Of a stretch of 64,000 bases of DNA, positions 16,048-37,273 are shown one piece after another. The stretch's first letter is position 1, and each line of letters starts with the position of its first letter. Below the pieces are notes generated by a model that saw only the letters and a program-made list of their open reading frames with translations, searched no databases and was not told the origin of the DNA. A program made the position numbers and the translations under genes. Source of the stretch: Chloroflexi bacterium B3_Chlor (GTDB lineage: Bacteria; Chloroflexota; Anaerolineae; UBA7937; B3-Chlor); contig NJBK01000002.1 in the NCBI GenBank assembly GCA_005223035.1, positions 1-64,000 on the forward strand, given 5' to 3'.

Positions 16048-16057
16048 GGGGGAGACG

Positions 16058-19000: not shown

Positions 19001-22000
19001 CTGGGCTACTTGGAGGAATCTTCAAAGCTCGATCCACGGAATGGTGAGATCCACTTCTTACTGGGCCAGGTCTATGAGATCGACGGGTCGCTGGAAAGAG
19101 CCTTGGATGAATACCAGGAGGCGATAGCGTATAGCCCGGAGGATGCAGGGTACCACACCTGTGCAGCTTCGGCCGCCCATCGTCTTGGGCGCGTGAATGA
19201 GGCAAAGGCACAGGCTGAGAAGGCCCTGGAACTGGAACATGCCCGTCCAGAACTGAACTACGAGTTGGGTAGGACATTGCAGGAGATAGGTTTGACCGCG
19301 GAGGCGGCCGTGTGTTTTGAGAGGGCTGCGGAAGTCACACCTGAGGAGCCAGAGTTTCAGTTGCACTACGCGAGGGCTCTGCGCGACCTGGGGCGCGTCG
19401 AAGAGGCAATCCGAGTGCTGGAAGCAGTCCGGCGATCACTTGGAGCATCAGCCGCCATCCACGCCGAGTTGGCGGGGCTGTATTCAACACAAGGCAAGAC
19501 AGCTGAGGCTTTGCAGCGGTGGGATGAAGCGATCAGCCTTGAACCCGAGGACGCTTCCTTTCATTTGGGAAAGGGAACACTGTTGCGTCATGACGGTGAG
19601 CCAGAACTCAGTGTGGCCGTGCTTGAGCGAGCTAGTGCGCTGAATGCCGATAATCCAGAGGTCCAATGGCAGCTAGGGCTGAGTCTCGAGGCAGTTGGCC
19701 GCGATGAGGAAGCATGCAAAGCGCATGGACGTGCCTCGAATTTGGCGCCTGACGTCCATATGTACCAACTATCATATGGTATGGCGTGCCGAAGGCAGGC
19801 TGATCTGAGCCAAGCGACCACCGCCCTGGAGGCCGCGATTGAACTGGCTCCGGACGATGCAGAGAGCAACCATCAACTTGGCGACCTCCGCCTCGAGCAA
19901 GGAGAGCTTGATGAAGCGATGGCCCTCCTGGAGAAGGCGTGTGCGCTGGATCCCGATGTTGGGGCGTACCATCGCTCCTTAGGCCGAGCCCACGCCATGA
20001 TGGGCCAGGACGATGAGGCAATCAGTGCTCTTGAGCGTGCAAGCACACTGATTGAGGGAGACGACGAACTGCTGTACGAACTAGCCCGGGCCGCGGACGC
20101 TCAAGATTATACGCACAAGGCGCTGGCTCTATGTCGTCAAGCTCTTGATTTGAAGCCTCACGATGCTCGCTACCTAGCGCAGGCGGCTGAGTTGCTCAGA
20201 AGGCTCGGGGAGGACGAGGAAGCTGTCCAGATCCTGGAACAGGCATCAGAGCAGGACGTGCCAGAGATTCAGCATGTACTGGCTCAGCTGTACCGTTCTC
20301 AGGGTCGACTGGCAGACGCACTGCACGCGGCGGAACGAGCGGTGCGGCTTGCCCGATCCAGTGCGGAGTACAGGACCCATTACGCAGAGGTGCTGGTTGA
20401 CTTGGATCGGGGGGAGGATGCCACGGCGCAGTTGGAGGAAGGCGTCCGACTTGCCCCTGGGAACTCGGCCAACCGGTTCACCCTCGGCCAGCTATACGAG
20501 GAGCAGGGTCTCTTGGAGCAGGCCGTGGATCAGTACACGGAAGCGGCAAGTCTGGCACCTGACCAGTCGGAATACCACTGGCGACTAGGGGGTCTCCTTG
20601 GGAAGCTGGGGCGCTCCGATGAAGCGACGGCGGCATTGGGAAAGGCCATCGCTCTGGACCCGGACGATGTTGAGGCATGCTTGACCGCCGGGCAGGTGCT
20701 GTATCAGCAAGGGTTGTATGAGGAGGCTCTATCGCAGTTCCAACGTGCTTTGGAGCTGGATAGCAGCCTAGTTTCAGCTCAGAGGGCAGCGGGTGCAGCA
20801 TTGCGCTGTCTCGGAGAAGACACCCGAGCGATTGAGGAACTTAGGAAAGCGATCGAATTGGATCCCGCCGATCATGAGACCCACTTTGAACTCGCGACAG
20901 CTTACGCTGCTGTCGGGAATCTGGAACGCGCTGTGGACAGTTGCCAAAGGGCCATTGACCTGGCTCCGGACGAAGCAAGTTACCATGGGCTCAAGGGCAA
21001 CTTGCTGCGGAGACTGGGTCGCTCTGATGAGGCCGAAAAGTGCCTGCGACAGGCGCTGGCCCTGAATGACAGAGACGTTGAGGCCCATTACGAACTGTCG
21101 GTGGTGTATGAGATGCAGGAGAGGTTCGAGGAAGCTGCTAAGTCCCACGAGCGAGCTGTTCAGCTTGCCTCCGACTCACCAGAATTCCGCCAACCGCTGG
21201 CCGTCGTGGCTTCGAGGATTGCCAAATCCCTTCCGTTGTCCCGAGCGTCCTCCTGGTTTGAGGAAGTCGAGCGAGAGTTGCACCAGGTCCTGGCAAGGAG
21301 GCCCGAAGATGCTCTTGCCCATAGCCAACTGGCTCTCATACATGCGAAGAGAGGCAGGGGAGAGAAAGGCCTTGCCGAGTGTAGGAGGGCCATCGAGCTT
21401 GACCCTGACAATCCGCTACACCATCACAATCTAGGTGTGGTGCTCCACAGCATTGGCAGAGGTGAAGAGGCAGTCCAAGAGCTGCTCGCGGCGTGCGACC
21501 TGGATCCCAAAGATCCTGCCAACCACTACGAGTTGGGCGTGACCTACCTCGCTGTAGATCAGTTGGGACCTGCCATAGCAGCTTTGGAGACGGCCACGCA
21601 ACTGGCTCCTGTGCGCGCAGACTATCAGTACGCCCTGGTGATGGCTTACGAACAAGCAGGGCGTGATGACGAGGCCATTTCAGCACTCACCAAAGCCATG
21701 GAGCATAATCCCAACGTTGCCGATAGACATCACCGTCTGGGCGAATTGTACGACAAGGGGGAACGGTACCAATCCGCCTTGGACGCGTACCTGTCAGCGA
21801 TCGAGCTGGAGCCGAAGAAGGCCCAATACTACTTCGACGCAGGCCTTGCGTATAGGCACATGAGACGGTACGAGAAAGCGGCCCACTATCTACAAGAGGC
21901 GCTCAACAGGAGAGACGATGACCCCCGCTGGTGGGCTGAGCTAGGGGCTGCGCTGGAATCGCAGAACCGTTGGGAAGACGCAGAGATGGCATACCAGAAG

Positions 22001-22867
22001 GCTATTCAGCTGGCGCCAGACGAGCCTTTGTACCTCCTGCATCTGGGTAGGTGCTATGAGAAGCTGGGCCGCTATAGCGATGCCGCGGCACAGTATCTGG
22101 AGGCATCTGCCCTGAGGCCGGACTGGGCGCTGGTTCATGAACGTCTGGCTAGCCTGGCAGAGGCACAGGGTGAGCCCCACGAGGCGCTGCTCAGCTATAG
22201 CAAGGCCCTGCAAGCAGATCCGGCCAACCCTAAGTACCATCTGAAGATGGGTGCTTTGCACAAGCGCGAGAAGCGATATGACCTCGCCATGGAAGAGCTC
22301 CACAGGGCGATGGAGTTGTCGGCAGAGGCGCCGGCTGCATACCATGAAATGGCGGAGATATATGAGGAACAGGGCAATCATGATGAGGCCCTACACGCCT
22401 ACCATCAGGCCCTGCGGGTAATGCCCGACGACGTTGCGTCCCATGTCAAGCTTGGTCAGTTGTGTGGACGGCTTGGACACATTGACAAAGCCGCTGCTCA
22501 CTTGAAGAAGGGTATTCAACTGGAGCCTACCGATGCAACCGCTCATTGCGAACTGGGACGGATATTCGAAATGCAGGGGGACCATAGTGCCGCGTTGCAG
22601 GAGTACGACCAGGCACTCCGCTATGAGCCCGATAGTTTTGCTCCCTACTTTGGGGCAGGCATGATCTACAAGAAGATGAAGCAGTACCCCGAAGCCGTGG
22701 AGATGTTCCGTCACGCGGTGAAGCTGGAACCTCATGACAGTGAAGCTTACAAACAATTGGCAGCCACGAGTGCACTGGCCTTCTTCGTGGCCCGGGGCGC
22801 TCGTTCGGCTGACCGATTTCAAGAACGAACCGATGTGGCACAGGAGGCCAAAACAGCGTGTCGCTGA
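16058..22867 (+). CDS. Giant NACHT-type STAND NTPase with about 50 TPR repeats
   Basis: 2,269 aa from ATG 16058, chosen because AGGGGGAG precedes it by 3-4 bases; an upstream in-frame TTG at 16034 lies inside the previous gene. The NTPase domain carries Walker A GRAGAGKT (101-108), Walker B VFLVDGLEH with D189, and VVTCRTEDY (sensor-1-like), a NACHT pattern. A helical region (about 250-480) leads into tetratricopeptide repeats that fill residues about 490-2255. Two TPR types alternate, for example YHYSAGVVLNHLQRYAEAQ then SYLELGFAYEKQEWYEEAL, giving a 68-residue period repeated about 25 times. There is no signal peptide or membrane helix. STAND proteins oligomerise on ligand sensing and activate an effector. 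The effector candidate is the clan-CD peptidase whose gene overlaps this one by 10 bases. Confidence 0.88.
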   Translation: MSEMESGGLPESAEEAEEHSNVELIDVQTTVRRYLQCLLDDLELQDISSSYLPLRLRPFRGFASRSQEGDQDAEPRSDNWLGSTSDILPALEGWERIVLLGRAGAGKTTTLRWLAHQQAEHLLTGGNSRLEGKSIPAQYLPLFVELSASNEGDGLLSALAGVFEKYELTVNEEAVGNILDRNAIVFLVDGLEHIRDNQLLDELARLVESGNTKCVVTCRTEDYGAFRRWLEDPLVLELEDMDEEERRTYIQSQLPESAGAFALSRARGEEPLWNLLRIPLFSTTFVELAEQAANGLGWVEGTTLVQEGVRRLLEATTSRLIDLDIDEARRDLAALALQMQRVRKSNTPELGSGHLVIQLGSPGTAVSPQRLSSLASTGIITISKAEDSVWFADSMVQDYFAALAMSESYTGALSKSICLDSEETAEHWEGVLLHLYHFLSDRLGYLQQLLQTRIDGWGPRVAAKCLAYNEDSHEARQLAASLALVDAVDLTSVYRLGVALKDLGKKDDAAALFEGMLGREREDSRPRQEMLGYREKYGRGSLDSSWPAQPERIISRRNLGLLYRELDQVDRAVTELEEAAQGANAACSDTYHELGLAYLQQGRLEDALTSFQHAIALNSGVAAYHYSAGVVLNHLQRYAEAQAELQQATMFEPEDPGSYLELGFAYEKQEWYEEALAAYQAAEARDPREPLCPQRISGLLSVHERWDEAAQALRRALALAPNKADWHYELGELYDRRGRHRDALAEYLHATDLDPKNPEYLHTAGALFHKMNRPAKAIDYLGAAVELDSGRADWCFDLASAMASQGRYDEAWVWSERSVGLAPDDPQHQVLAGTILRQLGRRSEAESQLRQAAELDPELAVARCELGLLLEDEGRRDEALAEYKAAIALEPEDATHHYGMGVLLHGMGQHEKAVESLTRAIELNPSFAKAAEKLGAVFEEAQHDGDALRMYDQAISMDPANASYHLRAGALCQKMGRVEDALGYLEESSKLDPRNGEIHFLLGQVYEIDGSLERALDEYQEAIAYSPEDAGYHTCAASAAHRLGRVNEAKAQAEKALELEHARPELNYELGRTLQEIGLTAEAAVCFERAAEVTPEEPEFQLHYARALRDLGRVEEAIRVLEAVRRSLGASAAIHAELAGLYSTQGKTAEALQRWDEAISLEPEDASFHLGKGTLLRHDGEPELSVAVLERASALNADNPEVQWQLGLSLEAVGRDEEACKAHGRASNLAPDVHMYQLSYGMACRRQADLSQATTALEAAIELAPDDAESNHQLGDLRLEQGELDEAMALLEKACALDPDVGAYHRSLGRAHAMMGQDDEAISALERASTLIEGDDELLYELARAADAQDYTHKALALCRQALDLKPHDARYLAQAAELLRRLGEDEEAVQILEQASEQDVPEIQHVLAQLYRSQGRLADALHAAERAVRLARSSAEYRTHYAEVLVDLDRGEDATAQLEEGVRLAPGNSANRFTLGQLYEEQGLLEQAVDQYTEAASLAPDQSEYHWRLGGLLGKLGRSDEATAALGKAIALDPDDVEACLTAGQVLYQQGLYEEALSQFQRALELDSSLVSAQRAAGAALRCLGEDTRAIEELRKAIELDPADHETHFELATAYAAVGNLERAVDSCQRAIDLAPDEASYHGLKGNLLRRLGRSDEAEKCLRQALALNDRDVEAHYELSVVYEMQERFEEAAKSHERAVQLASDSPEFRQPLAVVASRIAKSLPLSRASSWFEEVERELHQVLARRPEDALAHSQLALIHAKRGRGEKGLAECRRAIELDPDNPLHHHNLGVVLHSIGRGEEAVQELLAACDLDPKDPANHYELGVTYLAVDQLGPAIAALETATQLAPVRADYQYALVMAYEQAGRDDEAISALTKAMEHNPNVADRHHRLGELYDKGERYQSALDAYLSAIELEPKKAQYYFDAGLAYRHMRRYEKAAHYLQEALNRRDDDPRWWAELGAALESQNRWEDAEMAYQKAIQLAPDEPLYLLHLGRCYEKLGRYSDAAAQYLEASALRPDWALVHERLASLAEAQGEPHEALLSYSKALQADPANPKYHLKMGALHKREKRYDLAMEELHRAMELSAEAPAAYHEMAEIYEEQGNHDEALHAYHQALRVMPDDVASHVKLGQLCGRLGHIDKAAAHLKKGIQLEPTDATAHCELGRIFEMQGDHSAALQEYDQALRYEPDSFAPYFGAGMIYKKMKQYPEAVEMFRHAVKLEPHDSEAYKQLAATSALAFFVARGARSADRFQERTDVAQEAKTACR

Positions 22868-25455
22868 TAACGTCTAGAGAGCTATTTGACGTAGCCAAGT
22901 TCTCCTTCGATCTGGGCTATCAGGATTCGGGAGTGCTGTTGCTGGAGCATCTTCTGGAGCAGCTGCCGAGCCATGTAGCTGGGCATTGCCTTCTCGGCGA
23001 GAGACTCGTCACTCTGAAGCATTGGGCGGAAGCTCGAGAGCACTTCGAATACCCTTTGATGGTTGATCCTTTGAATCTCTCAGCGCTAAGGGGGATGGGC
23101 CGCATCGACCTGGCGCAGGGTTCCTCTGCCGAGGAAAGCGAATACCTCCAGAGGGCTTGGGGCCTGTACCCGTACGACGCCGTGACCAGGCAACTAGTCG
23201 GTAAATCGTTGGATGACCTGCCTCCCTTGACTCTGGCCCGAATCCTGACCGTGTCTTCCCTTCATGAAGATGCCCTGCGCTACTACCAGGTTGGTTGTGA
23301 GCAATCAGACTCGGCGTCAGCGGAGGCGGTCTTGACACTGGTCCTTGCGCAAGCCTTGTGGAGGGCAGGGCGCGCGGATGAAGCCAGATCTCTGCTGGAG
23401 AGGCTTGCTGGTGAGCAGCCGATGTGGATCAGACCGAAACTGATCCTGGCGGACATAGCACTGGAGCAGCGGGACGATGCCCTCGGCGTGGCTCTGCTAC
23501 ACGATGCCAACGCCCTGGACTGTAGTCTGCTCGTCGCCCAAGAGTTGCTTAGTTTAGATGAGCGGTACGGCTCGCTGATGATGAAGAGTCTTGAAGTGCC
23601 AGCCCCAGGGTCTGAGATCATGGACAGCGCGCCGGCAATCCTGCGGTACCTCTTGCGGGCGGAACCTTTGCCTGCGCCGCTTGCGGCCGACGCGACCTTG
23701 ATGGAGCGATCACCGGATTCAGGGGACCCCCATCTGACCAAGAAGGGCTGCGATCTCGGTGCTGTGGTTGCGGAATCCAGTGATGGTGCTGATGTGGCAC
23801 CTACGTACGAGGTGCCCGAAAGCGAAGCCCCGATTGACAATTCTGGGCAAGGGATCGCGGTTCGCCTCATTCTGTCCAGTCGGGACAGGCTGGTTTCGAG
23901 CTACGGAGAGGACGGGTGTGGAAAGCTGGATGCCAAGCTCTCAGAACTCTGTGAGGCCGTGTCGCGGTCCACAGGTGACGAGGCCATCAAGATCTACGTC
24001 GACGATGAGTCCTGCCTCGCCGAGTTTGGCCTGGGTAACGTTGATCCCTCTGATCCAGAGCAGATAAGGCGACTGATTGAGCAACTCGATTCGAGGCTGA
24101 GGCGGGAATCGAAGGGAGTGAAATCCCTGTTGATCGTCGGGGGTGATTCAGTAATCCCCTTCCATAGGCTTGCCAACCCTACTGATGATGAAGACACAGA
24201 AGTGCTCTCAGACTGGCCCTATGCGGCTCAAGATGGTGGTCCCTTACTCGTAAGATTCAGCGTAGGACGTCTGCCGGACGGCGATCCAGGGGATCTGGCG
24301 ATGCTGTTGCAGCTTGTAGACCAAGCAATCGGGCATCACAATGCCAGCTCTCAGGGTGGCAAGGGCATCACGTCTTCAGGGTGGCTGAATCCGATCCGGA
24401 GATTGCTAGCTTCTGGGCAAGCGTCACAGACCAGCGTTGGCTACTCGGCCGAGATTTGGGCTGAGGCGTCTCGCTCCGTGTTCGAAGTGATAGGGGACGC
24501 CAGCAAGTTGCATGTGTCTCCCCCGTTGACTGACTATGACTTCTTGAGTACATACGAGAACATCCCAGCGCTGAGCTATTTCAATCTGCATGGATTCCGC
24601 GGAAGCTCGTATTGGTACGGTCATGGAGAGTCAGAGCATGGTGCCCCCCTGTTGCCTATTGCACTTACTCCTCTCTCGATCTCTTGGACTGATGCGCAGG
24701 CGGCACTGGTGTACTCGGAGGCGTGCTACGGAGGGGATCTACAGAATCAGCACAGTGACGGCTCGATAGCTATGAGCTTCCTCGCCAAAGGGGCCTTGGG
24801 GTTCATCGGCTCCACCGCGATGTCGTACGGCTCGTTGGCGCCTCCTCTGTCGGGTGCTGACTTGCTTGGCAGATATCTCTGGGAGGGCGTCGTAGGAGGA
24901 CTCCCGATCGGATGTGCGTTGCGAAGGGCAAGGTCGGCGTTGATCCGCGCAGCAACAGAGGACCAAGGCTATCTGGACGGGGAGGACCAGAAGACACTAC
25001 TGAGCTTTGTACTGTACGGTGACCCTTCGTTGTCCCTAACAAGTGCCTCGACATCGTCGGAGATGGACGCCGAACTCCGGGTTGCGTGTCCTCCACTGGC
25101 CTGCTGTTCCTCGATGATGGAAAGCGGATCACTGCCGCTTCCACGAGACCTAAAACAGAAAGTGCAGCACAGTCTGCCCTTCCTATCTATGAATGGCCTT
25201 GAGGCTCATCCGCTTATCCTCTGTAGGGTGGCCTCTTCACACTGTGAATGTGCCACGAATTCGTGCACTTCAAAGCAGCAAACCCAAGGGCACCTTCCCG
25301 AGTTGATTGTCGCCTCTCAGCAGAAGGTGGTTTCCAAGGGCGGGGATCAATTGCGTCACGTTGTCAAAGTGACGGTCAACGCTGATGGTGATGTGCTCAA
25401 AGTGGTCATCTCCAGGGGAGGAACACTCGTGGACAAAGGAAGCAGGCTAAGATGA
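22858..25455 (+). CDS. Cytoplasmic TPR / clan-CD (C25, caspase/gingipain-like) cysteine peptidase with extra C-terminal domain
   Basis: 865 aa, starting at GTG 22858 inside the end of the NACHT gene, with AGGAGG 12 bases upstream. Residues 1-210 are helical, TPR-like. The peptidase region (about 310-720) carries the clan-CD dyad: H578 in YFNLHG and C623 in VYSEACYGG, 45 residues apart, as in caspases and gingipains. LLIVGGDSVIPF and RFSVGRLP are C25-like strands. No signal peptide is present, unlike secreted gingipains, so it probably acts in the cytoplasm. Residues about 745-865 form a separate Cys-rich domain ending RHVVKVTVNADGDVLKVVIS, homologous to the 78-aa product at 32770. By analogy with other STAND and caspase-like pairs it could be the effector activated by the NACHT protein; the substrate is unknown. 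Confidence 0.85.
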   Translation: MSLITSRELFDVAKFSFDLGYQDSGVLLLEHLLEQLPSHVAGHCLLGERLVTLKHWAEAREHFEYPLMVDPLNLSALRGMGRIDLAQGSSAEESEYLQRAWGLYPYDAVTRQLVGKSLDDLPPLTLARILTVSSLHEDALRYYQVGCEQSDSASAEAVLTLVLAQALWRAGRADEARSLLERLAGEQPMWIRPKLILADIALEQRDDALGVALLHDANALDCSLLVAQELLSLDERYGSLMMKSLEVPAPGSEIMDSAPAILRYLLRAEPLPAPLAADATLMERSPDSGDPHLTKKGCDLGAVVAESSDGADVAPTYEVPESEAPIDNSGQGIAVRLILSSRDRLVSSYGEDGCGKLDAKLSELCEAVSRSTGDEAIKIYVDDESCLAEFGLGNVDPSDPEQIRRLIEQLDSRLRRESKGVKSLLIVGGDSVIPFHRLANPTDDEDTEVLSDWPYAAQDGGPLLVRFSVGRLPDGDPGDLAMLLQLVDQAIGHHNASSQGGKGITSSGWLNPIRRLLASGQASQTSVGYSAEIWAEASRSVFEVIGDASKLHVSPPLTDYDFLSTYENIPALSYFNLHGFRGSSYWYGHGESEHGAPLLPIALTPLSISWTDAQAALVYSEACYGGDLQNQHSDGSIAMSFLAKGALGFIGSTAMSYGSLAPPLSGADLLGRYLWEGVVGGLPIGCALRRARSALIRAATEDQGYLDGEDQKTLLSFVLYGDPSLSLTSASTSSEMDAELRVACPPLACCSSMMESGSLPLPRDLKQKVQHSLPFLSMNGLEAHPLILCRVASSHCECATNSCTSKQQTQGHLPELIVASQQKVVSKGGDQLRHVVKVTVNADGDVLKVVISRGGTLVDKGSRLR

Positions 25456-27899
25456 CTTTGGAGCGATACTGGCGACCGAACAACGATACCGGGTTTGGGT
25501 TCCACTACTACCCCGACACGGAGCACTACAGCCCGTATGACCTCAAACGGTGGTTGCCTGAACTCAAGAGCATGGGCACCAGTTGGCTTGCGGTCTTGTC
25601 TGGGCTGGAAACTCCGATCCCAGAGTTCTTCGTCAAGAAACTAATAGCCAACGAAATTGAACCTATCGTACGAGTAGCAACGCCGGCGATTCAACCCTTA
25701 GACAGGTCTGCGCTGGGCGAACTCCTGAGAGTCTACGCAAGCTGGGGTGTCCATTACGTGGAGGTATTCTGCGACGCCAATTGCGCTTCCAGATGGCCTC
25801 TTCGGGATTGGTGTTGCGTCTCCTTAGTAGAGAGGTTCGTGGATCTGTTGGTGCCGTGTCTCGAGGAAATGCACGTCGCTGGCTTGCATCCCGTCTTTCC
25901 CGCTCTGCGGCCCCATGGCGACTACTGGGACCTGAGCTTCCTCCAAATCGCTCTAGAACTCCTGACAGCCAGTGTCAACGGCTCCCTTATCGAGAGCATG
26001 GTGGTCGGCATGCACAATCATGCCTTTGACAAGCCCCTTAGCTGGGGTCAGGGAGGGCAGAAACGGTGGTCAACGGCTCGACCGTACTTCAGCCCGCAGG
26101 AGAGCCAGGATCATATCGGGTACAACCTCTTTGAGTGGTACGATGAGATCATTCAGGCTACCGTGGGGCATTCTCTGGGCCTGATATGCATGGGTGGTGC
26201 GGTTGTCGGAGACCCCAATTCCTCGACCAACGGTGTGTGGACCAACCAAGGCGGCCACTCTGACCGCGCTGTCGCGATTGCTACAATGGTGATGGATGGC
26301 TCCGTTCCCGACTATGTAGTCAATCACAACTTCTGGTTGTTGGCTGCCAAGGAAGGCGATCCTCGCAGGGCGCAGGCCTGGTACGGCGCACAGGGAGAGG
26401 AGAGCCTGGCAGTTACTGCGATGAAAGGGCTTCTCAAGCACCCCCGCTCTCCTAATGGCAAGAGTCCGCCCTCCGTCGAACCAAACCCACCACCCAGTCC
26501 AATTGGCGGCGTGGAGTTTGTCGGACTCTCGCAGGAGATGATAGATGCGTTGCGCATTAGCGGCCCCCAGCGTGCGACTGAACCATTCTGGAGGGTTGTC
26601 CGTGTGGAAGTGCAACCCGCGACCCAGAACATGAGTGCCTTTGTGATCGCGGATGCGGAAGCTGTTGGCTTCTCCTGGCCTGACGGCGAACATGTGGTCG
26701 CTCCCAAGGATGACCCCTACGCACCTGCTGGTGCTCGACAACAGGCGGCGTCCATGCCCATGTTCGCTGGCTGGGGTGCCTACTCCGCGGAAGTGGTGAG
26801 CAACAGTGAAAAGCTGAGCGGGTTTGGGCTGTATGGCGACAACTTGGAGTTGACCCATACCCAACACCACCCGGTTATCGTCAGTTTCCGACTCGTGGAT
26901 CCGAGCGGGAATGATCCACCGCCGACGCAGCCTGAACCTCCAAGCCCTCCATCTCCACTTCCGCAAACGCCGGTCGCATATGAGGCTTTTCGCCGACCTC
27001 CTGGGGATAATGGGATGGGCATTCACTTTGGTCTCAACACAACGAGTGAAGCTATCTCACTGGACATCAGGAGGGCCAAGGACATGAAGCTTACCTGGGC
27101 CACTCTCTGTTACCAGGGTGATGAGCAACTCGTAAGATGCGCCAAGATGATCTGGGATGCGGGCATCATGCCAGTCTGCAGACAGATCACCGGCGTCAGC
27201 AGAAGCTATCCCTTCGACAGAGATGCTCGAGTGCTCATGGAGAACGGCATCCCAGCCTACATCCAGATCTTCAACGAGCCCTCAGATCCTCGGGAATGGG
27301 AGAGGGGGAGGCCCAAGGACTATGTTGACAAATGGTCCGGGCTCTGGGCGCAGAAGGCCACTGAAGTGTACAACGCTGGAGGTTATCCAGGGCTCCAGTG
27401 CCTGCAACCAGAAGAAGCGGAGGCGGCCATAGACGTGCTGGGAGCTGACAGCCAGGTGTGGGAGCGTGTGTGGTTCTGCGCTCACAACTATGGTTTGAAT
27501 CACCCTCCAGCTTGGCAAGAGGACTACTGGTGCGTCCTGGGGTTCCAGTTCTTCGCAGAAGTGTTCAAGAGGCGTTTGGGCTTCGTCCCACCCATCATTT
27601 GCGGAGAGGGCGGATGGTTATACGGTGCTTACGATGACCATCGCTATCCACGGGTTGACGGCATGGTTCACGCCAGGTACACAAAGGAGATGTTCGAGTG
27701 GTTCCGCACGGGCAAGCTGTCCAACGGCGAACTGCTCCCCGATTATCTGTTCGCTGTTTGCCCTTGGATACTCAGCGACTCGACCGACGAGGCTTGGTAC
27801 GGATTCACGACCAAGGGGCTGACCATTCAAGCCGTAGGGGACATCCCTGAGTTTACCAGGGCGAGCAGTGTTCCTACCAAACCAGGAGCCCAGGAATAA
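25452..27899 (+). CDS. Twin TIM-barrel protein (clan GH-A-like); first active site degenerate, second intact
   Basis: 815 aa, overlapping the peptidase gene by 4 bases (ATGA). It contains two related barrels (about 1-335 and 520-800) separated by a Pro-rich linker, a beta-rich domain (about 365-490) and another Pro-rich linker. In barrel 2 both glycosidase glutamates are present: E609 in IFNEPSD and E719 in ICGEGGW. In barrel 1 the equivalent sites read FCDAN (D108 for the acid/base Glu) and ICMGGAV (Gly for the nucleophile). No signal peptide is visible. The paralogue at 37274 shows the opposite pattern. The neighbours include a PGRP amidase and SpoIID, so a wall-related glycan substrate is plausible. 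How it would be exported, or whether it works inside the cell, is unclear. Confidence 0.75.
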   Translation: MTLERYWRPNNDTGFGFHYYPDTEHYSPYDLKRWLPELKSMGTSWLAVLSGLETPIPEFFVKKLIANEIEPIVRVATPAIQPLDRSALGELLRVYASWGVHYVEVFCDANCASRWPLRDWCCVSLVERFVDLLVPCLEEMHVAGLHPVFPALRPHGDYWDLSFLQIALELLTASVNGSLIESMVVGMHNHAFDKPLSWGQGGQKRWSTARPYFSPQESQDHIGYNLFEWYDEIIQATVGHSLGLICMGGAVVGDPNSSTNGVWTNQGGHSDRAVAIATMVMDGSVPDYVVNHNFWLLAAKEGDPRRAQAWYGAQGEESLAVTAMKGLLKHPRSPNGKSPPSVEPNPPPSPIGGVEFVGLSQEMIDALRISGPQRATEPFWRVVRVEVQPATQNMSAFVIADAEAVGFSWPDGEHVVAPKDDPYAPAGARQQAASMPMFAGWGAYSAEVVSNSEKLSGFGLYGDNLELTHTQHHPVIVSFRLVDPSGNDPPPTQPEPPSPPSPLPQTPVAYEAFRRPPGDNGMGIHFGLNTTSEAISLDIRRAKDMKLTWATLCYQGDEQLVRCAKMIWDAGIMPVCRQITGVSRSYPFDRDARVLMENGIPAYIQIFNEPSDPREWERGRPKDYVDKWSGLWAQKATEVYNAGGYPGLQCLQPEEAEAAIDVLGADSQVWERVWFCAHNYGLNHPPAWQEDYWCVLGFQFFAEVFKRRLGFVPPIICGEGGWLYGAYDDHRYPRVDGMVHARYTKEMFEWFRTGKLSNGELLPDYLFAVCPWILSDSTDEAWYGFTTKGLTIQAVGDIPEFTRASSVPTKPGAQE

Positions 27900-27930
27900 G
27901 TACGTTATGAGAAGGGAGAAGGTGTCACGC

Positions 27931-28446
27931 GTGGAGGAGTACGAGGACATGGGCGGCGGCTATGCGCATGAGGATCAGGTGCAATTGCCCCCTCACGAAA
28001 TGAGCTTGTTCATAGACGAGCTTGAGGACCTGATCTGCACCGGCGTCAGAGTGCCTCTGACGGCAAAGGCGGTTGTTGATCAGGAACAGTGTCTGGATAC
28101 TCTGCAAGTGCTTCGCGCCAACTGGCCCTGGGAGATGCTGGAGGCGAAACGCATCCTCTCGCAAGAGGGAGAAGTGCTGGAAAGGGCGGAGGTAGAGGCT
28201 GAGGAGATCAGACAACGCGCCGAGCGACAGGCAGCCGTGATTCTTGATCAGAGTCAACTCGTGAAGATGGCGGAGGTCCGTGCCCAGGAAGTACTTGAGG
28301 CAGCGGAGCAAGAGGCGACCCAGCTATTGCAGCGCGCTGAGCAGGATGTCAGGGATGTGTATTTGGGTTTGGAGCGAGAGCTGGAGCTGCTGTTGCGCGA
28401 CATCAAAGGACTGGTGGCAGCTCGCTTGGGCAGGTTGAGAAGCTAA
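27931..28446 (+). CDS. Coiled-coil protein of the DivIVA / F0-b-like type
   Basis: 171 aa from GTG 27931, which has GGGAGAAGG 8 bases upstream; ATG 27907 is the alternative and would add 8 residues. After a charged N-terminus comes MSLFIDELEDLICTGVRVPLTAKAVVD. This resembles a short family I know from Chloroflexota and actinobacteria that is loosely annotated as cell-division initiation or ATP-synthase-b-like. From about residue 70 to the end the chain is a long Glu/Ala/Arg coiled coil (RAEVEAEEIRQRAERQAA). Such proteins polymerise or scaffold at membranes and septa. It lies between the twin-barrel gene and MraZ, 27 bases before the latter. A division or polarity scaffold is plausible; no enzyme motif is present. 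Confidence 0.65.
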   Translation: MEEYEDMGGGYAHEDQVQLPPHEMSLFIDELEDLICTGVRVPLTAKAVVDQEQCLDTLQVLRANWPWEMLEAKRILSQEGEVLERAEVEAEEIRQRAERQAAVILDQSQLVKMAEVRAQEVLEAAEQEATQLLQRAEQDVRDVYLGLERELELLLRDIKGLVAARLGRLRS

Positions 28447-28473
28447 GTGGATGGAGCAGATGAGGGCAGGGGG

Positions 28474-28908
28474 ATGCTGCTAGGGACCTCCAAGGTGGTG
28501 CGGCTTTCAGCCGAGGGTCTTGTCGTGCCCCCCCAGTTCCGGGAGGGTCTAGAGGATGCGTTTGTCATGACGAGAGGGCTGGACCGGTGCGTTGCCGTCT
28601 TTCCTCTTACTGTGTGGGACGCCCTGCTGGAGCGCATTGACCCGCCCGCATCATTCCTTCGCGCGGCTGCTCGTCTGTTTCAGCGGCACATCTATGGAGG
28701 CGCCTTGGTCGATACACTCGGACCCGAGGGCCAGATGAACGTTCCAGAGCATTTGCGGCGTTATGCCGAATTGGCGGACGAGGTAGTGGTGGTCGGAGTT
28801 GCCACGCGTTTGGAGATCTGGAGTCCGGAGCGGTGGAGCGAAGAGGAACTCAACATCATCGAGCAGGCAGAGCAGGCCTCAGAGGCTTTGAGTGGTTACG
28901 GAATCTAG
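28474..28908 (+). CDS. Divergent MraZ-like protein lacking both DXXXR motifs
   Basis: 144 aa from ATG 28474 (GAGGG 7 bases upstream; GTG 28447 is possible). Two SpoVT-AbrB/MraZ halves are clear: VVPPQFREGLEDAFVMTRGL with CVAVFPLTVWDAL, and NVPEHLRRYAELADEVVVVG with LEIWSPERW. MraZ is a DNA-binding regulator normally encoded first in the division/cell-wall cluster, and its two halves carry DXXXR motifs that contact DNA. Here these read LSAEGL and LGPEGQ, so Asp and Arg are lost from both. The gene therefore keeps the fold but probably not ordinary mra-box binding. Its neighbours are a coiled-coil protein, an amidase and an FtsZ-like gene, a miniature of a division cluster without ftsW, ftsI or mur genes. 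Confidence 0.75.
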   Translation: MLLGTSKVVRLSAEGLVVPPQFREGLEDAFVMTRGLDRCVAVFPLTVWDALLERIDPPASFLRAAARLFQRHIYGGALVDTLGPEGQMNVPEHLRRYAELADEVVVVGVATRLEIWSPERWSEEELNIIEQAEQASEALSGYGI

Positions 28909-28945: not shown

Positions 28946-31573
28946 ATGCGAAGAACACTGACCGTTCTAGTGTTGTTTTCCGCAACCTTGTTCGTAATGC
29001 AGAGTGTGCCTCACAGGGAGACCGTTGTGAGGACCGAGACCGCCATACAGGATGGGACTCTGGCACAGTGGGTCCAAAGCACATTGGCCGACTTTGAGCA
29101 GGCTGAACCAGACTGTGTGGCTGTGTCTGCAGTTGATGATGGAGAGGTCGCCCTTGCCCAGGAGGAAGAAGGACGACACTGCCCAACCGGCACCTTGGTA
29201 TCTGCCATCTACGAGTCGTCAGTCCTTTTCAACATGGTGGGGTCCGCTTGGGCGGTAGACAAGCCCCTGGGAACCAGCTTCCAATTGGAGGTTCGTGCTA
29301 GCGCCGATCGTGAGGCCTGGAGCGACTGGATGGAGGTTGTTCAGGATGAGGATGGACCCAAGACCGAGCAGATGACTCACGGCAATCTACTTGAAGTTTC
29401 ACCATCCCGGTATCTGCAGTACCGGCTGATCCTGGGCACCTTCGAGACGAGCGTCTCACCCCTGGTGCGTGAACTGGTTTTCACTGTCATGAACACACGC
29501 GATGGGCCGACTGCCAAGGAGGCCCGTGCCATGATCCTTCCCCAGGAGGTGACCTCCGGGGTACCCCAACCTCGCATCATTTCCAGGAGGGGCTGGGGGG
29601 CCAACGAGTCCTGGGCGACGCGGGAGCCGGTTTACCAGAAGCCGACGGCCTTTGTCATCCACCACACGGTAACGCCCAACAATCCTGAAGACCCGGCATA
29701 CATCGTACGTGCCATCTTCCAGTATCACGCCCTATCCCGGGGATGGGGTGACGTTGGGTACAACTTCTTGATTGATCGCCAGGGCAACATATACGAGGGG
29801 CGCAAAGGTGGAGATGGTGTGGTTGGGATTCATGCCGGGGACTACAACTATGGCAGTATTGGGATCGCCCTCCTGGGGGACTATAGATCCGCGAAGATGA
29901 CTCCAGCGATGAAGGAGGCTCTTATCTCATTGATGGCATGGGAAGCTGATCGCTTCGACATACATCCGCTGGAATCATCGTATTTCGTCCACCGCGTATT
30001 TCCCGACGTGGTAGGGCATCGCGATCTGTGGCCCACGATCTGTCCGGGCGACAACGTATATCGGGTGCTGCCGGAAGTGCGCCAGTTGACCTGGCAACGG
30101 CTTCTCGCTCACAACCCTAGGGTCGTGATTGCTAACCCTTCGGCAGGCGAGGCTATCTCGGGGAGGACGACGATACGAGTCTTCAGTCCGAGCCCCACCA
30201 CATCGGCGACCCAGCTCTTCTTGGACGGTGCACTCAAGGAGGAGAGCGGCTCCTCGCTCTCTTGGACATGGAACACGCGGCAATTCACCGAAGGCATTCA
30301 TCGAATCGAGGCTGTGGCCACCAGCATCCAAGGCCGTACGTCCCGTGTGGCGCACGAGGTCACAGTGGACAACACGCCGCCGACCGGTTCAATCGAGATC
30401 AGCGAGGGAGCATCGTACACGTCGCAGTTGACCGTTACCCTTAGCTTGCAGGCAGAAGATGGACAGGGTGACTTGAACGGCATGCAGTTCACCCAGGACA
30501 ATGCCAGCGAGTTCAGTGAGCTCGAGGAGTTCGCACTTTCCAGAGAGTGGTTCTTGAGTTCTGGTGACGGGGAGAAGATAGTCGGCGTCCGCTTCCTCGA
30601 CATCGCCGGGAATGCCTCGGCGACCTACACTGCGACCATTGTCCTCGACACGGAACCGCCGGGCGATTGGACTGCGGTTGACGTCGGGGATTCTGACCGC
30701 GTCGTGGTCGAAGTCTCAGATCATGGGAGCGGGCTGGACACGTCAAGCGCCACCTATTCCGTCTCCGCCGACGGAGAGCTCACATGGGGTGAGTGGCAGC
30801 CTGCTTCGTGCGACGCAGGAGAAAGCGAGTACTCGTTGAACACTTGTCGTCTGGTGGCCGAGCCGCCTGAAGGGGCAGTGCGGTTAAAGATAGCCGACCG
30901 TGCAGGCAACGAAGGACATAGCCCCGTTTACGGCCAGTCGGGCTCGCCGACGCCGTACGATACTCCAGGGGTCAGCCCGGTACCGACCGCTCCACCCGCA
31001 GGCACCCCCACTCCGGAGATACCGCCAAGTGGGCTGCCAGACTTGGTTGTGCGCGGGGTGGAGGTCAGCCCCGAAGTAGGCTTGGAATCCGGCTCGGTGA
31101 CCGTCACCGTGACGATTGAGAACCAGGCTGGCGTAGACGCAGAGAACGGCTTTTGGGTTGAGCTATTCGTGGACCCGCCAACCGTCCCGAGCATAAACTC
31201 GATAGCCGTGCAGGATGGTGAGGGCGCGTTTTGGTACGTCTCGGGTCTGGCTGGCCAACAGCCGCTTGGACTGTCGCTGGAAGATGCGGATGACCGGTAC
31301 AGCAACTTCGGAGGCAGTTTCTCGGCCGGGCGACATGAACTATATGCGTATGTGGACGCCTACAACTCTGAGGGTGAGATCGGGCTAGTGTTGGAAGCCG
31401 ACGAGTCCAACAATGTGCTTGGTCCGCTGATCGTGGACATCGGCCAGGGGTCGGGCGGGGACGGTTCAGACCCTATGGGCAGTGGACCAGTGCAGACGCT
31501 GCGGCTCTTCGTCGAACGGGTGGGGAGATTCCTGGAGTTGCTGCGAGATTACGTCGCATCGCAGCAGGGTTGA
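28946..31573 (+). CDS. Exported PGRP-type N-acetylmuramoyl-L-alanine amidase with Ig-like and CARDB-like modules
   Basis: 875 aa with an N-terminal signal peptide (MRRTLTVLVLFSATLFVMQSV). The amidase_2/PGRP domain (about 210-385) has RRGWGANESW, the zinc site H239/H240 in VIHHTVTPNN, YNFLIDRQGNIYEG, H358 in VGHRDLWP and C366, all in canonical order, so catalysis is expected: cleavage of the amide between N-acetylmuramic acid and L-Ala in peptidoglycan. Downstream are Ig-like modules (about 395-560, with VDNTPPTGSI), a beta-rich segment, a PT-rich linker and a CARDB-like module (about 690-840, LPDLVVRGVEVSPEV). GGAG-type ribosome-binding sequence precedes ATG 28946. Within the run it would supply the peptide-stripping activity that SpoIID-type transglycosylases need. 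Confidence 0.9.
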   Translation: MRRTLTVLVLFSATLFVMQSVPHRETVVRTETAIQDGTLAQWVQSTLADFEQAEPDCVAVSAVDDGEVALAQEEEGRHCPTGTLVSAIYESSVLFNMVGSAWAVDKPLGTSFQLEVRASADREAWSDWMEVVQDEDGPKTEQMTHGNLLEVSPSRYLQYRLILGTFETSVSPLVRELVFTVMNTRDGPTAKEARAMILPQEVTSGVPQPRIISRRGWGANESWATREPVYQKPTAFVIHHTVTPNNPEDPAYIVRAIFQYHALSRGWGDVGYNFLIDRQGNIYEGRKGGDGVVGIHAGDYNYGSIGIALLGDYRSAKMTPAMKEALISLMAWEADRFDIHPLESSYFVHRVFPDVVGHRDLWPTICPGDNVYRVLPEVRQLTWQRLLAHNPRVVIANPSAGEAISGRTTIRVFSPSPTTSATQLFLDGALKEESGSSLSWTWNTRQFTEGIHRIEAVATSIQGRTSRVAHEVTVDNTPPTGSIEISEGASYTSQLTVTLSLQAEDGQGDLNGMQFTQDNASEFSELEEFALSREWFLSSGDGEKIVGVRFLDIAGNASATYTATIVLDTEPPGDWTAVDVGDSDRVVVEVSDHGSGLDTSSATYSVSADGELTWGEWQPASCDAGESEYSLNTCRLVAEPPEGAVRLKIADRAGNEGHSPVYGQSGSPTPYDTPGVSPVPTAPPAGTPTPEIPPSGLPDLVVRGVEVSPEVGLESGSVTVTVTIENQAGVDAENGFWVELFVDPPTVPSINSIAVQDGEGAFWYVSGLAGQQPLGLSLEDADDRYSNFGGSFSAGRHELYAYVDAYNSEGEIGLVLEADESNNVLGPLIVDIGQGSGGDGSDPMGSGPVQTLRLFVERVGRFLELLRDYVASQQG

Positions 31574-31586
31574 AGGAGGCGCCTGG

Positions 31587-32777
31587 ATGAACGAGTCAGA
31601 TGACGGGCTGTCACACGTAGAGGAGGGACCGATGACTCGGCAATACAACCAACCACTGATCAAAGTCATCGGAATCGGGGGCGGAGGCGGCAACGCCGTT
31701 GACAGGATGATTCACGTCGGTATTCCGGGGGTGCAGTTCATGGCCGCGAACACCGACGCTCAAACCCTTGCCCGGTCGGAGGCCCCGCACAAGGTACAAC
31801 TTGGCCCGCAGACTACCAGAGGCCTGGGGGCTGGAGGCGACGCTGAGGTAGGAGCTAGGGCAGCTGAAGAAAGCTCGGAGGCGCTGGTGGAGGTCTTGAG
31901 GGGAGCGGAAATTGTGTTCCTGGCCTTGGGTCTGGGTGGCGGTACAGGCACGGGCGCAGGACCAGTCATCGCGGAGTTGGCGCGACAGGTTGGAGCTTTG
32001 ACCGTAGCCGTCGCGACGACGCCGTTCAGCTTCGAGGGGCGCAAACGGGCCGAGACAGCCATGGAAGGAATGCGGGCCCTAGCGACGAAGTCAGACACTC
32101 TCATCGCCATCTCCAATGACCGTCTACTGGAGTTCATTGATGAGGAGACTTCGCTCGATATCTCCTTTCGCATAGCCGATGAGGTGCTCAGGCAGGGGAT
32201 TCAGGGGGTGGCTGAGCTCATCACGAGTACAGGCCTAATCAATCTCAATCTGATGCACGTGAGAACGGTACTGCAGAACGCCGGTTCGGCGCTGATGTCA
32301 ATTGGACAAGGCCGGGGAGATGATCGGGCGGTAGAGGCCGCACACCTGGCGATCGCCAGCCCACTCACCCAGCTATCATCCATAGCAGGAGCGTCGGGAA
32401 TCCTGGTCAACATCACGGGTGGTGCCGACCTGTCGCTAGACGAGATCCAGCAGGCCGTGAGCACAATAGCTGGGGTTGCTAGTCCTGATGCCAACATCTT
32501 CTTCGGGGCCACGGTCGATCCCAACATGGGAACGCAACTTCAAGTCATGCTCATCGCCGTAGGAATGGACGGCCTGACACGAGTACGCCCTGTGGATTCG
32601 CTAGTCTCTCACGGACAGCCGTATCGCAGTTCGGCAGCGCACCCCTTCAGGGCTGAAGGGGCAGGACTGCACCGTTTCGACCGCTCCCAGCAGGGCACCG
32701 ATCTCCATGATCTGGACGTTCCCACCTTCCTGAGACGTCGTAGATTGGGGAGGATAGCGGAGGAACAGTATGAGTAG
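31587..32777 (+). CDS. FtsZ paralogue with degenerate catalytic T7 loop but intact C-terminal peptide
   Basis: 396 aa from ATG 31587 (AAGGAGG 7 bases upstream; ATG 31632 also has a site). The GTP-binding core is well kept: VIGIGGGGGNAVDRM, AANTDAQ and the tubulin signature GGGTGTGA at 117-124. The T7 synergy loop, normally NxDxxD with two Asp that hydrolyse the neighbour's GTP, reads N219-L-N-L-M-H224, so both Asp are lost. The protein ends with a canonical FtsZ tail, LDVPTFLRRRR, the site that binds SepF/FtsA-type anchors. It should bind GTP and perhaps co-polymerise but not activate hydrolysis, acting as a cap or stabiliser of Z filaments. It overlaps the 78-aa gene by 8 bases. A second, normal ftsZ is expected elsewhere in the genome. 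Confidence 0.88.
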   Translation: MNESDDGLSHVEEGPMTRQYNQPLIKVIGIGGGGGNAVDRMIHVGIPGVQFMAANTDAQTLARSEAPHKVQLGPQTTRGLGAGGDAEVGARAAEESSEALVEVLRGAEIVFLALGLGGGTGTGAGPVIAELARQVGALTVAVATTPFSFEGRKRAETAMEGMRALATKSDTLIAISNDRLLEFIDEETSLDISFRIADEVLRQGIQGVAELITSTGLINLNLMHVRTVLQNAGSALMSIGQGRGDDRAVEAAHLAIASPLTQLSSIAGASGILVNITGGADLSLDEIQQAVSTIAGVASPDANIFFGATVDPNMGTQLQVMLIAVGMDGLTRVRPVDSLVSHGQPYRSSAAHPFRAEGAGLHRFDRSQQGTDLHDLDVPTFLRRRRLGRIAEEQYE

Positions 32778-33006: not shown

Positions 33007-33024
33007 GAGCCAAAGCGAGGGTTG

Positions 33025-34665
33025 ATGATGAGAGGGGCACAAAGGATGGTGGTGCTCGATAGGGCTAGTCGTCGGCGTCTCATCGTTCACTTGCTGTTGC
33101 TGGTCGTACTCAGTTTCAGCTTCCAGGACCCCTCGACTGCAGTGGGGGCTCCCGGTCTGGTCGAGCCGACCACATACGTGGTTTCCTGGGGGGATACTCT
33201 GTCCAGTATTGCCCGGCGATATGGGACCACGGTGTCCGCTATTGTCCAGGCTAATCAGGTTTTCGATCCTGATTTCATCTACGTAGGCCAGAGGCTTGCG
33301 ATCCCGGCCACCTCTCCTGCACCAACTGGTTCCGGCGTCTATGTGGTGCGAGTAGGGGACACCCTGTCAGCTATAGCAGCGCGCTATCAAACGACAGTTC
33401 AACGCCTGGTTCAGATGAACGGTCTCACGAACGCAAACTTCATAGTTGTCGGACAGAGAGTGGCAGTACCTGATGGGGGTCCGCCAGACCCTTCAGTAGT
33501 TTCCGGTGGAAACGGCACCGTCTATCGAGTGCAACGGGGAGACACTCTCATAGCTATTGCCACGCGCTTTCGTGTGAACATGTGGGACATTGTCTTGGCC
33601 AACAACATCGCCAATGCGTCACTGATCTACGTTGGTCAGTCGCTAGTCATACCTGACGTCCGGCCATCTACCGGTGGCACGCCCACTCCCGTGCCGAGGG
33701 GAACGCCCGCACCCACTCGACAGGCTCCGACGGCGACTCCGAGGCCTCCCACACGCACGCCGGGGCTCCCTAGCCCGACGACCGGGCCTTCGTACGCATT
33801 TAGGTATGTGCAGGGTAGCATGCGGCAATTCCCCAACTGCGGAACCGTCTACTTCAAGGGTCAGATTAGAGGCATAGGAGGCGAGCCGGTCAACGGGAGG
33901 ACGTTGCGTCTGCGCTTCGCGGGCCACGTCGTCTACAAGATGAGTGGAGTGGGTCAAAACCCTGGTGAATGGGGTTTCGCGCCCTTGGCTCCCGAGAACT
34001 ATCATTCTCCGTTCACATTCCTCATAGATACTGTGGAGAGTGAGGCCAATCCGGTTCCGCAGTCGGACACGGTGGAGATTCGTTTCACCGACTGCGGCAC
34101 TGCAGGACAGTTCGACAACATCGTCTTCGAGTATGTTGGAGGAAATCCCGCACCCGTTCCGAGTCCAACTAGTGTGCCAACGCGCAACCCTGCGCCAACT
34201 TCTACCCCGAGCAGTCCTCTGCCGCCGATTGAATGGGATCAGCGCCTGAACGACCTGCCATGTGTAGGATTGGTGACTGTGGCGGAGAGAGGCATACAAG
34301 TGCGGCCAGGGGACCGGTACTGGCGACTCGTGAGCGCCAGGTGGCTCAATGAAGACGAAAGCCGCAGGGACATACAGATCCACGTGGATCTGCTCGACGA
34401 GGCGGGGCGGCGTGTGTTTGGAGAGACCGTGGTGTTTGAGAACGGTGGTCGGCACAGGGTGGTCAGTGAACCCCAGAGTTGCTGCTACCCGTGGGACTAC
34501 CCAGTCAAGTGGCCAATGTTCAATGTGCTTTGCTCCTATAACGCCTATGTAGAGGGGCTGCCCAGCGATATGGTGGTAGGGATGGGACTTGGAACTCCGA
34601 AGCATCCTGATTGGACTGTTCACACCGGGTTTGTCTTGACCTTCCAACGGACTGAACATCGGTGA
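33025..34665 (+). CDS. Exported protein with three LysM domains and two beta-rich C-terminal regions
   Basis: 546 aa from ATG 33025 (GCGAGG upstream; ATG 33028 is possible). A basic start and hydrophobic stretch (about 16-35, LIVHLLLLVVLSFSF) form a signal or anchor. Three LysM domains follow at about 50-94, 107-150 and 167-211, each with the YVV.WGDTLSSIARRYGT pattern, giving binding to peptidoglycan N-acetylglucosamine. After a Pro/Thr-rich linker comes a beta-rich domain (about 253-372) starting SMRQFPNCGTVYFKGQI, then another Pro/Thr linker and a final domain (about 405-545). No catalytic motif was recognised. It is probably a wall-bound surface or scaffold protein made together with the amidase and FtsZ-like proteins. 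Confidence 0.85.
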   Translation: MMRGAQRMVVLDRASRRRLIVHLLLLVVLSFSFQDPSTAVGAPGLVEPTTYVVSWGDTLSSIARRYGTTVSAIVQANQVFDPDFIYVGQRLAIPATSPAPTGSGVYVVRVGDTLSAIAARYQTTVQRLVQMNGLTNANFIVVGQRVAVPDGGPPDPSVVSGGNGTVYRVQRGDTLIAIATRFRVNMWDIVLANNIANASLIYVGQSLVIPDVRPSTGGTPTPVPRGTPAPTRQAPTATPRPPTRTPGLPSPTTGPSYAFRYVQGSMRQFPNCGTVYFKGQIRGIGGEPVNGRTLRLRFAGHVVYKMSGVGQNPGEWGFAPLAPENYHSPFTFLIDTVESEANPVPQSDTVEIRFTDCGTAGQFDNIVFEYVGGNPAPVPSPTSVPTRNPAPTSTPSSPLPPIEWDQRLNDLPCVGLVTVAERGIQVRPGDRYWRLVSARWLNEDESRRDIQIHVDLLDEAGRRVFGETVVFENGGRHRVVSEPQSCCYPWDYPVKWPMFNVLCSYNAYVEGLPSDMVVGMGLGTPKHPDWTVHTGFVLTFQRTEHR

Positions 34666-34947: not shown

Positions 34948-36675
34948 ATGAGGAAGAGGATGTGCCGTATGGTCGTGGTGTTCATTGTGCTCGCGCTTCT
35001 CGCAGGCCTCGGTTCTCCTGTCTGGGGGGCGCCCGAGTCCGAGCGGCGAGCTACAGCGTCACTGCTCCACATAGTGCAGTGGGGGGAGAACCTTACATTG
35101 ATAGCTCGGCGATACGGAGTTACCACCGGGGCCATTGTGCAGGCGAACGGGATAGCCAATCCCAACTACATCTACGCAGGACAGAGACTGGTGATCCCAA
35201 CGCCTTCGCCATCTCCTTCACCGCCTTCGTCAGGTACGACGACAACCTATGTGGTGCGCAGGGGAGATACCCTGTCAGGCATTGCGTACCGCTTCGGAAC
35301 CACAGTCAACACCATCGTGTCGTTGAACGGGCTGGTGAATCCGAACCTCATCTTCGGCGGCCAGACGTTACGCATCCCTGGGCAGGGACAGCCGTCCCAA
35401 CCGGATCAGCCGACTGAGACCTGCGTCTATGTCGTGAAGGCGGGCGACAACTTGACGAGGATCGCACTCGCCTACCGCACAACGGTGTGGGCCATCGCCA
35501 TTGCCAATAACTTGGCAAACCCCTCCTTCATCTGGGTCAGCCAGCGGCTGGTGATACCGGGCTGCTCACCCAGCAGTTCACCCACGCCAACACCGGGACC
35601 GCCCGGTCCAGCACCTCAGCCAACGGCCACTCCGGCACCGACCGTGCAGCCCGGCCCGGTGCCTCGGATGAATACCCCGGAGTACGGAGTGCATACCTTT
35701 CTGTGGTGGAACGGCGAGTACCGCGCTCGAGACGCACAAATGGTTAAAGACGCAGGACTCACCTGGGTCAAGGAGCTATTCCCCTGGAGGAGCATCGAGG
35801 GGGCGGGCAAAGGCATTTTCAACTGGTCGGTTGCGGACCAAGTGGTCCAGACACTGAATGATCGCGGATTGAAGGTCATTGCTCGGGTTGATTTCCAGCC
35901 TGCCTGGGCCAGAGCCGCCGGTGCCAATAACGGACCCCCGGACAACTATCGTGACTACGGTGACTTCTTGTATGCGATGGCCAGCCGCTATCGGGGGAGG
36001 ATTCAGGCTTATGAGATCTGGAATGAGCCGAATCTTGCCCGTGAATGGGGTGATCGGCCGCCCAACGCTGCAGAGTATGTGGCACTGCTAAGGGTTGCGT
36101 ATCGCCGCATCAATGAGGCTGACCCCAATGCCGTGGTCATCACCGCAGGCCTGGCTCCAACGGGAACCGGTCTGCCCCACGCCATTCCCGACGTCCGGTA
36201 CCTGCGTGAGATGTACCAGGCAGGCGCCAAGAACTATTTTGACGTGCTCGGAGTCCACGCCCCCGGTTACAAAGCTGCCCCAGAGACCAGTCCTAGCGAA
36301 GTGCAGAACAACCCCGCGCTAGGGGGCAGGCGCTTCTTCTGCTTCCGGCGTGTGGAAGACCTGCGCCAGGTCATGGTGGAGAACGGGGACGCAGGAAAGC
36401 AGATGGCGGTCCTGGAGTTTGGGTGGACAAGCGATCCCAGGCCTGGTTCTCCATACAATTGGCACGCGGTGTCGGAGGAGACAAAGGCTGACTACATAGT
36501 ACGTGCCTTCCAGTGGGCTCGCGACCATTGGTCACCATGGATGGGCGTGATGACTGTGCTGTCCATCGCGGATACAGCATGGACGGAGGACGATGAGCAG
36601 TACTGGTGGGCCATCACCAATCCTGATGGCACCACTAGGCTAGCCTATGACGCGCTGAGAAGCGCTCCCAAGTAG
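34948..36675 (+). CDS. LysM(x3)-glycoside hydrolase (clan GH-A-like), exported
   Basis: 575 aa with a signal peptide ([20 protein letters not shown], cleavage near VWGAP). Three LysM domains at about 41-85, 98-141 and 155-200 are followed by a Pro/Thr-rich linker and a TIM-barrel catalytic domain (about 240-570). Both glutamates are present: E360 in [12 protein letters not shown] (acid/base) and E490 in AVLEFGW (nucleophile). AAGGAGGTAGAGG precedes ATG 34948. The LysM array places the enzyme on peptidoglycan, so it may cleave a wall-linked polysaccharide. The barrel is related to those in the twin-barrel proteins of this run and to the secreted enzyme at 3796. Exact substrate unknown. Confidence 0.88.
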
Positions 36676-37234: not shown

Positions 37235-37273
37235 CGCACAGGCGCGCGAGTATGGCCATACAGGAGGGTGATC

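Follow-up and report, generated by a model that had tools for sequence, protein, structure and literature searches.

An MraZ-fold paralogue without DXXXR motifs beside a caspase-like protease and a second FtsZ in a Chloroflexota bacterium

The gene at positions 28474 to 28908 on the plus strand of the window (the whole stretch of 64,000 nucleotides analysed here, positions 1 to 64,000 of contig NJBK01000002.1 of Chloroflexi bacterium B3_Chlor) encodes a paralogue of MraZ, termed MraZ2 in the following, which has the MraZ fold and lacks both DXXXR motifs. Loss of DNA binding by MraZ2 is strongly indicated. We interpret MraZ2, with a probability of roughly 0.5, as a retained MraZ paralogue that has ceased to act as the mra-box factor and would instead be a protein adaptor, in the form of a DNA-free ring, within a second FtsZ module linked to a protease. 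The adaptor role is what we infer from the gene's setting.

The open reading frame is genuine and extends from 28447 to 28908 if started at a GTG, or from 28474 to 28908 if started at the ATG where the MraZ match begins. Pfam family PF02381 matches it in two stretches (2.9e-19; 69.2 bits, cut-off 23). With the AlphaFold2 model of the single chain (pLDDT 82.1, pTM 0.77, weak at residues 66-73), all 16 significant Foldseek matches in the PDB were MraZ, including the promoter complexes 9r4j and 9sz7, and VIA-align superposed the model on 1n0e_C with Z 15.9 over 133 residues (rmsd 4.4). A likeness of the model to FliY/CheC-type proteins was weak (Z about 6 or less) and was set aside. An earlier note on this DNA, made from the sequence alone, had recognised the MraZ fold in both halves, in agreement with these results. 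By its two MraZ/AbrB-type half-repeats and its modelled tertiary structure the protein belongs to MraZ, and it resembles the dcw transcriptional repressor (PF02381, TIGR00242) in fold, length, half-repeats and core columns. It differs from that repressor in lacking DXXXR in both halves as well as the loop lysine K13, in scoring 79.5 bits with the curated equivalog TIGR00242, below the cut-off of 98.35 (131.8 bits for this genome's canonical copy), and in lying away from dcw, with neither an adjacent mraW nor upstream mra boxes.

MraZ probably contacts DNA through its DXXXR motifs. The corresponding loops of MraZ2 in the window read ...RLSAEGLVVP... and ...LGPEGQMNVP...; the canonical D and R align to L11 and G15 in the first and to G83 and Q87 in the second, and D...R occurs in neither register. 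Where the earlier note had given the motifs as SAEGL and GPEGQ, the absence of DXXXR stands, whereas its register of the first motif was one residue out. Among related genomes, each of the 29 non-cluster copies retains both motifs, against two of the 14 copies in the cluster described below, where "non-cluster" or "dcw" denotes a copy away from the C25 protease gene (dcw context being Pfam-checked for the window genome only). The other 12 cluster copies miss at least one D or R, a count of sequences and not of independent events; G138:C592 and the fragment G170:C116 were left out. This distribution argues that motif loss is not due to chance. The loop lysine K13 (of DxKGR) separates the groups completely, with 29 of 29 non-cluster and none of 14 cluster copies. 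Out of 33 columns conserved to at least 80% in the 29 non-cluster copies, seven drop by at least 0.4 in the 14 cluster copies, and six of these seven fall in the two DXXXR loops (p = 1.7e-4). The core is retained, with G4, P19, R23, T33-R34-G35, C39, R71, L94, G108, E114, W116 and W121 (MraZ2 numbering) kept in 86-100% of the cluster copies.

The loss differs between families (designated f1, f2 and so on). Both motifs are affected in f1 and f3, the second in f49 and mainly the first in f50 and f54. This suggests several separate losses among the cluster copies. The two cluster copies with both motifs, from G031 and G004 (L223 and L021), lack the loop lysine; they imply either that the gene was in the cluster before the full loss or that the motifs were lost several times. 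The tree of MraZ (144 columns) has a weak backbone and needs two label changes for the cluster rows, so that a single origin of the cluster copies is neither shown nor excluded. Our search of the open-access literature found no paper on DXXXR in MraZ.

The window genome possesses two genes with PF02381, namely MraZ2 and a copy at 74.3-74.7 kb of contig C70. The latter has the motifs DSKGR and DKQGR and is accompanied by genes for a MraW methylase, a penicillin-binding-type transpeptidase, a MraY-type glycosyl transferase and a MurD-type ligase (Pfam), with an FtsZ gene about 15 kb beyond this group. Upstream of it lie a TATAAT and then three mra boxes at 10-base spacing; at least two boxes at this spacing were present in 13 of 14 canonical upstream regions tested. 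With this mraZ in the dcw cluster and its mra boxes, the normal role of MraZ is covered. By contrast, no triple of mra boxes was found on either strand of the 64-kb window (three pairs versus 3.4 expected), nor on the sense strand of 25 cluster stretches comprising 349,286 bases (9 pairs versus 10.8 expected). These scans rule out autoregulation of MraZ2 at mra boxes of the canonical type. The box pattern is insensitive in family f29, in which most intact copies likewise have no array, and the scans therefore leave room for a different motif. The earlier note had proposed to look for a second, canonical mraZ at the dcw cluster, and had named as evidence against its reading the absence of another mraZ together with a conserved mra box near MraZ2. 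The canonical gene was found beside mraW, and no box array lies near MraZ2. Together with the focal loss of putative contact residues, these two observations make use as a DNA-free ring the simplest account.

It is alternatively conceivable, if unlikely, that DNA binding by MraZ2 persists through altered contacts and that the protein controls its own cluster or some other regulon. A single MraZ ring engages several DNA repeats, and weak sites can thereby sum; the MraZ fold is kept in the AlphaFold2 model and the Foldseek matches, and some cluster members may still be DNA-binding, considering both motifs in G004 and G031 and the second motif in the three f50 copies. K13 is gone from the copy in the window, on the other hand, as are the arginines and aspartates of both motifs, and the net charge of this copy is -9 against +2 in the canonical copy. 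An acidic charge was rejected as proof against DNA binding because the two groups (means -4.6 and -2.3) overlap in range. The clusters also lack any mra-like array with 10-base spacing, in a scan that would miss a new motif.

Decay into a functionless duplicate, the explanation that we regard as very improbable, would agree with the missing motif residues and with the faster evolution of MraZ2 relative to the other copy in close pairs. The reading frame is open in all 14 cluster copies, most core columns are conserved, and the loss is centred on two loops. Between close relatives dN/dS of MraZ2 amounts to 0.21-0.28 in three f3 pairs and 0.36 in one f50 pair, higher in all four than that of the other copy (0.06-0.27), yet far from neutral. 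We rejected decay on the basis of dN/dS and core conservation. The earlier note's conclusion of repurposing and not decay is supported by the retention of fold and core under purifying selection, by the canonical mraZ elsewhere and by the lack of nearby boxes, and the present results extend it.

A further alternative retains an indirect effect on transcription. MraZ2 could enter mixed rings with the canonical protein and lower their affinity for DNA, so that expression of the cluster would derepress the dcw operon. In favour of such a dominant-negative antagonist, 12 of the 14 genomes whose cluster MraZ is complete also show a complete canonical copy, the exceptions being G031 (79% complete, none seen) and G170 (a fragment). 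The conserved core common to both copies and the selective loss of DNA-loop residues, as expected of an inhibitor, likewise fit. We nevertheless consider it distinctly unlikely, as the two copies of the window genome are only about 33% identical and the link to the C25 protease and the second FtsZ is left unexplained.

MraZ2 belongs to an operon-like, tightly packed run of genes, all on the plus strand. The run begins with a giant protein (16034-22867) that has an N-terminal NACHT NTPase domain (Pfam, 3.4e-11) followed by TPRs, and continues with a peptidase of the caspase-like/gingipain family C25 with N-terminal TPRs (22858-25455; PF01364, 2.9e-16). The putative His-Cys pair of this protease, in NLHG and SEACYG, is invariant in eight of eight aligned rows (H295 and C342). 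Next follow a conserved gene at 25452-27899, nicknamed "GH", for which no Pfam family was found, and a gene for a coiled-coil protein at 27868-28446 that is possibly DivIVA-like, with no family above cut-off, and whose last base immediately precedes the alternative GTG of MraZ2. The coiled-coil gene has a second copy on C70 (G000:C70:93876-94256), as has FtsZ, and it is this C70 copy that matches DivIVA_Wag31 weakly, below the cut-off; the gene in the run is possibly a third, weakly identified, division-type paralogue in the run. Downstream of MraZ2 lie an N-acetylmuramoyl-L-alanine amidase with Ig-like and CARDB domains (28946-31573; Amidase_2 1.7e-20, Big_7, CARDB, and alignment) and FtsZ2, a paralogue of FtsZ (31578-32777; Pfam Tubulin and FtsZ_C, TIGR00065). 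Conserved neighbours, recognised by synteny, are a LysM protein (33022-34665), a LysM and glycoside-hydrolase-like protein (34948-36675; Cellulase 3.8e-6), a small LysM protein (36695-37234), all three with Pfam LysM, and a gene nicknamed "SpoIID" (37268-40390), which is related in sequence to the gene at 25452-27899. Small open reading frames of 81-85 amino acids beside FtsZ2 in two other stretches (L188:6279-6536 and L190:6059-6304) resemble the C-terminal tail of C25 and are possibly a detached regulatory tail.

Within the class, 335 of 396 genomes have an MraZ match and 42 have the C25 family (E <= 1e-30). In the 34 of these 42 genomes whose surroundings were viewed, the cluster includes FtsZ in 24 and MraZ in 14, where several contigs end early. 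Cluster MraZ copies are distributed over seven families (f1, f2, f3, f26, f49, f50 and f54). The order to which the window belongs is represented by nine genomes, seven of which have MraZ2 in the cluster; the contig of G001 (L068, taken as identical with the 4843-base contig G001:C124) stops inside the amidase, before the expected place of MraZ2, and no C25 was found in G006 (64% complete). In family f1, genera whose proteins are about 58-83% identical preserve a stable gene order, which reaches into the LysM and amidase genes, and f50 and f54 show the simple succession TPR, C25, MraZ2, FtsZ2. C25 and FtsZ2 are the constant neighbours of MraZ2. FtsZ2 clusters without MraZ2 are common (f4, f27, f39, f55 and f59), which makes MraZ2 an accessory. 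An apparent absence of FtsZ2 from cluster relatives outside the order proved wrong, for the contig of L073 ends early and G047 and G078 of the same family carry FtsZ2. The C25 family is not restricted to the class, as it occurs phylum-wide (30 of 400 genomes); in 14 stretches representing further families of this phylum, several of which end soon after C25, neither FtsZ nor MraZ was found beside it.

FtsZ2 of the window scores 363.9 bits with TIGR00065 (cut-off 295.2) and keeps both the GTPase signature GGGTGTG and the C-terminal peptide DLDVPTFLRRRR. The T7-loop aspartates of FtsZ are catalytic. In FtsZ2 this loop reads NLNLMHV in place of NLDFADV, both aspartates being changed (to N and H), in line with the earlier note, which had seen in the neighbouring FtsZ a second division paralogue without its defining residues. 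A tree of 54 FtsZ sequences places 25 cluster and 29 dcw-type copies on opposite sides of one branch (100/100), while long branches among the cluster copies render the inner order unsure. For this tree, L261 and L263, which repeat cluster copies, were dropped together with the partial L262, which has its T7 aspartates, and L269 was counted as a cluster copy because it groups with those of family f4, an assignment by tree and not by surroundings. By this sequence split FtsZ2 is an old, class-wide paralogue, and a recent duplication limited to the order of the window is rejected. Of the 25 cluster copies, 14 have a change at a T7-loop aspartate (all seven of the window's order, and others in f26, f55, f59 and f39), versus none of the 29 dcw copies, and the remaining 11 cluster copies retain the aspartates. 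The FtsZ2 copies of f39 (L236, L237 and L238) have also lost GGGTGTG (AGGTGGG, SGDTGGG) and show very long branches. G223 and G271 have three FtsZ genes each, of which one lies in the C25 cluster; the tree assigns the other two to the dcw type.

Altered MraZ copies are likewise found outside the cluster. A survey of 13 genomes of the class with more than one MraZ match and no C25 at threshold, from which G010 was dropped because its copy is split, revealed a second copy missing at least one D or R in 10 of 12 genomes (families f29, f16, f37 and f23), similar to MraZ2 in this respect. In f29 (L362-L368) the degenerate copies lie in a different, conserved group of genes, labelled response-regulator-like, TPR and ATPase-like by inspection of their sequences and in part by scans, and neither FtsZ nor C25 was seen in these surroundings, in which they differ from MraZ2. 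In G298 (L371:5968-7641) a FtsZ paralogue is directly followed by an MraZ copy whose first motif is DNAGK, with a TPR giant nearby on the other strand. The recurrence of degenerate MraZ near TPR proteins fits MraZ as a reusable protein module, and makes the case of the window one of several.

The combination of a NACHT-TPR protein with a caspase-like protease also suggests a conflict or cell-suicide system, in which the division proteins would be effectors or guarded targets and MraZ2 and FtsZ2 would act as decoys or as parts that block division. Kaur et al. 2020 (PMC7159879) describe division-related effector domains, rarely FtsZ/tubulin, in NTPase systems of multicellular bacteria that also use caspases, and these systems resemble our cluster in joining a STAND NTPase, TPRs and a caspase-like peptidase. 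Such rare effectors keep this explanation in consideration, which we deem improbable. FtsZ/tubulin are effector domains in the systems described there, whereas FtsZ2 and MraZ2 are separate genes here, and the vWA-MoxR-VMAP core of those systems did not come to notice in the cluster. PADLOC 2.0 gave the giant TPR-level matches only, and C25, MraZ2 and FtsZ2 no match at all, and the stable gene order of f1 into the LysM and amidase genes is unlike a typical patchy defence island.

Related arrangements are known for single components. HetF of Anabaena, according to PMC8406250, combines a CHAT caspase-like domain with TPRs and is a component of the divisome. Like the C25 protein of the window it is a caspase-like putative protease with TPRs and a tie to cell division, but its protease family is CHAT and not C25. 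A caspase-like protease in division is therefore not unprecedented. For plastids, a division system with two types of FtsZ, FtsZ1 and FtsZ2, of which one is stabilising, is reported in PMC12343686, a likeness to the two types found here, and repression of division genes by MraZ is stated for M. genitalium in PMC8475190. In our searches of the open-access literature, neither a cluster of this kind nor MraZ paralogues were found described. To our knowledge MraZ is known only as a dcw transcription factor, and we know of no MraZ or FtsZ paralogue partner of HetF and of no link of the plastid pair to MraZ or a protease.

If MraZ2 is a protein adaptor, it would still form a ring, as a platform for proteins rather than a clamp on DNA, and this ring might hold or time a partner from the module, the nearest candidates being FtsZ2 and the C25 protease. 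FtsZ2 of the window's order, given the catalytic role of the T7 aspartates, would form slow or static filaments. The NACHT-TPR protein could sense a cue and trigger the C25 protease, which in turn would set the FtsZ2/MraZ2 assembly free or dispose of it. At the site of assembly the wall would meanwhile be remodelled by the amidase and the LysM proteins. The whole might constitute a protease-linked device for an alternative septum or for wall remodelling, alongside normal division. On a larger scale, and as a doubtful generalisation, part of the class may possess a second, protease-linked FtsZ system (NACHT-TPR, C25 and FtsZ2) with apoptosome-like control of an alternative cytoskeletal filament, into which MraZ would have been drawn and made a DNA-free ring, its contact residues being lost several times.

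The retention of the fold while the DNA loops were shed represents a natural separation-of-function experiment. Its intermediates are at hand, as G004 and G031 keep DXXXR and f50 keeps the second motif, while the family of the window has lost nearly everything. The spare division parts, MraZ2 and FtsZ2 beside a caspase-like protease, suggest reuse for another job. A conserved cluster in which a second FtsZ is linked with a caspase-like protease and a NACHT-TPR protein is apparently undescribed, and it makes testable whether bacteria control division filaments by caspase-type proteolysis.
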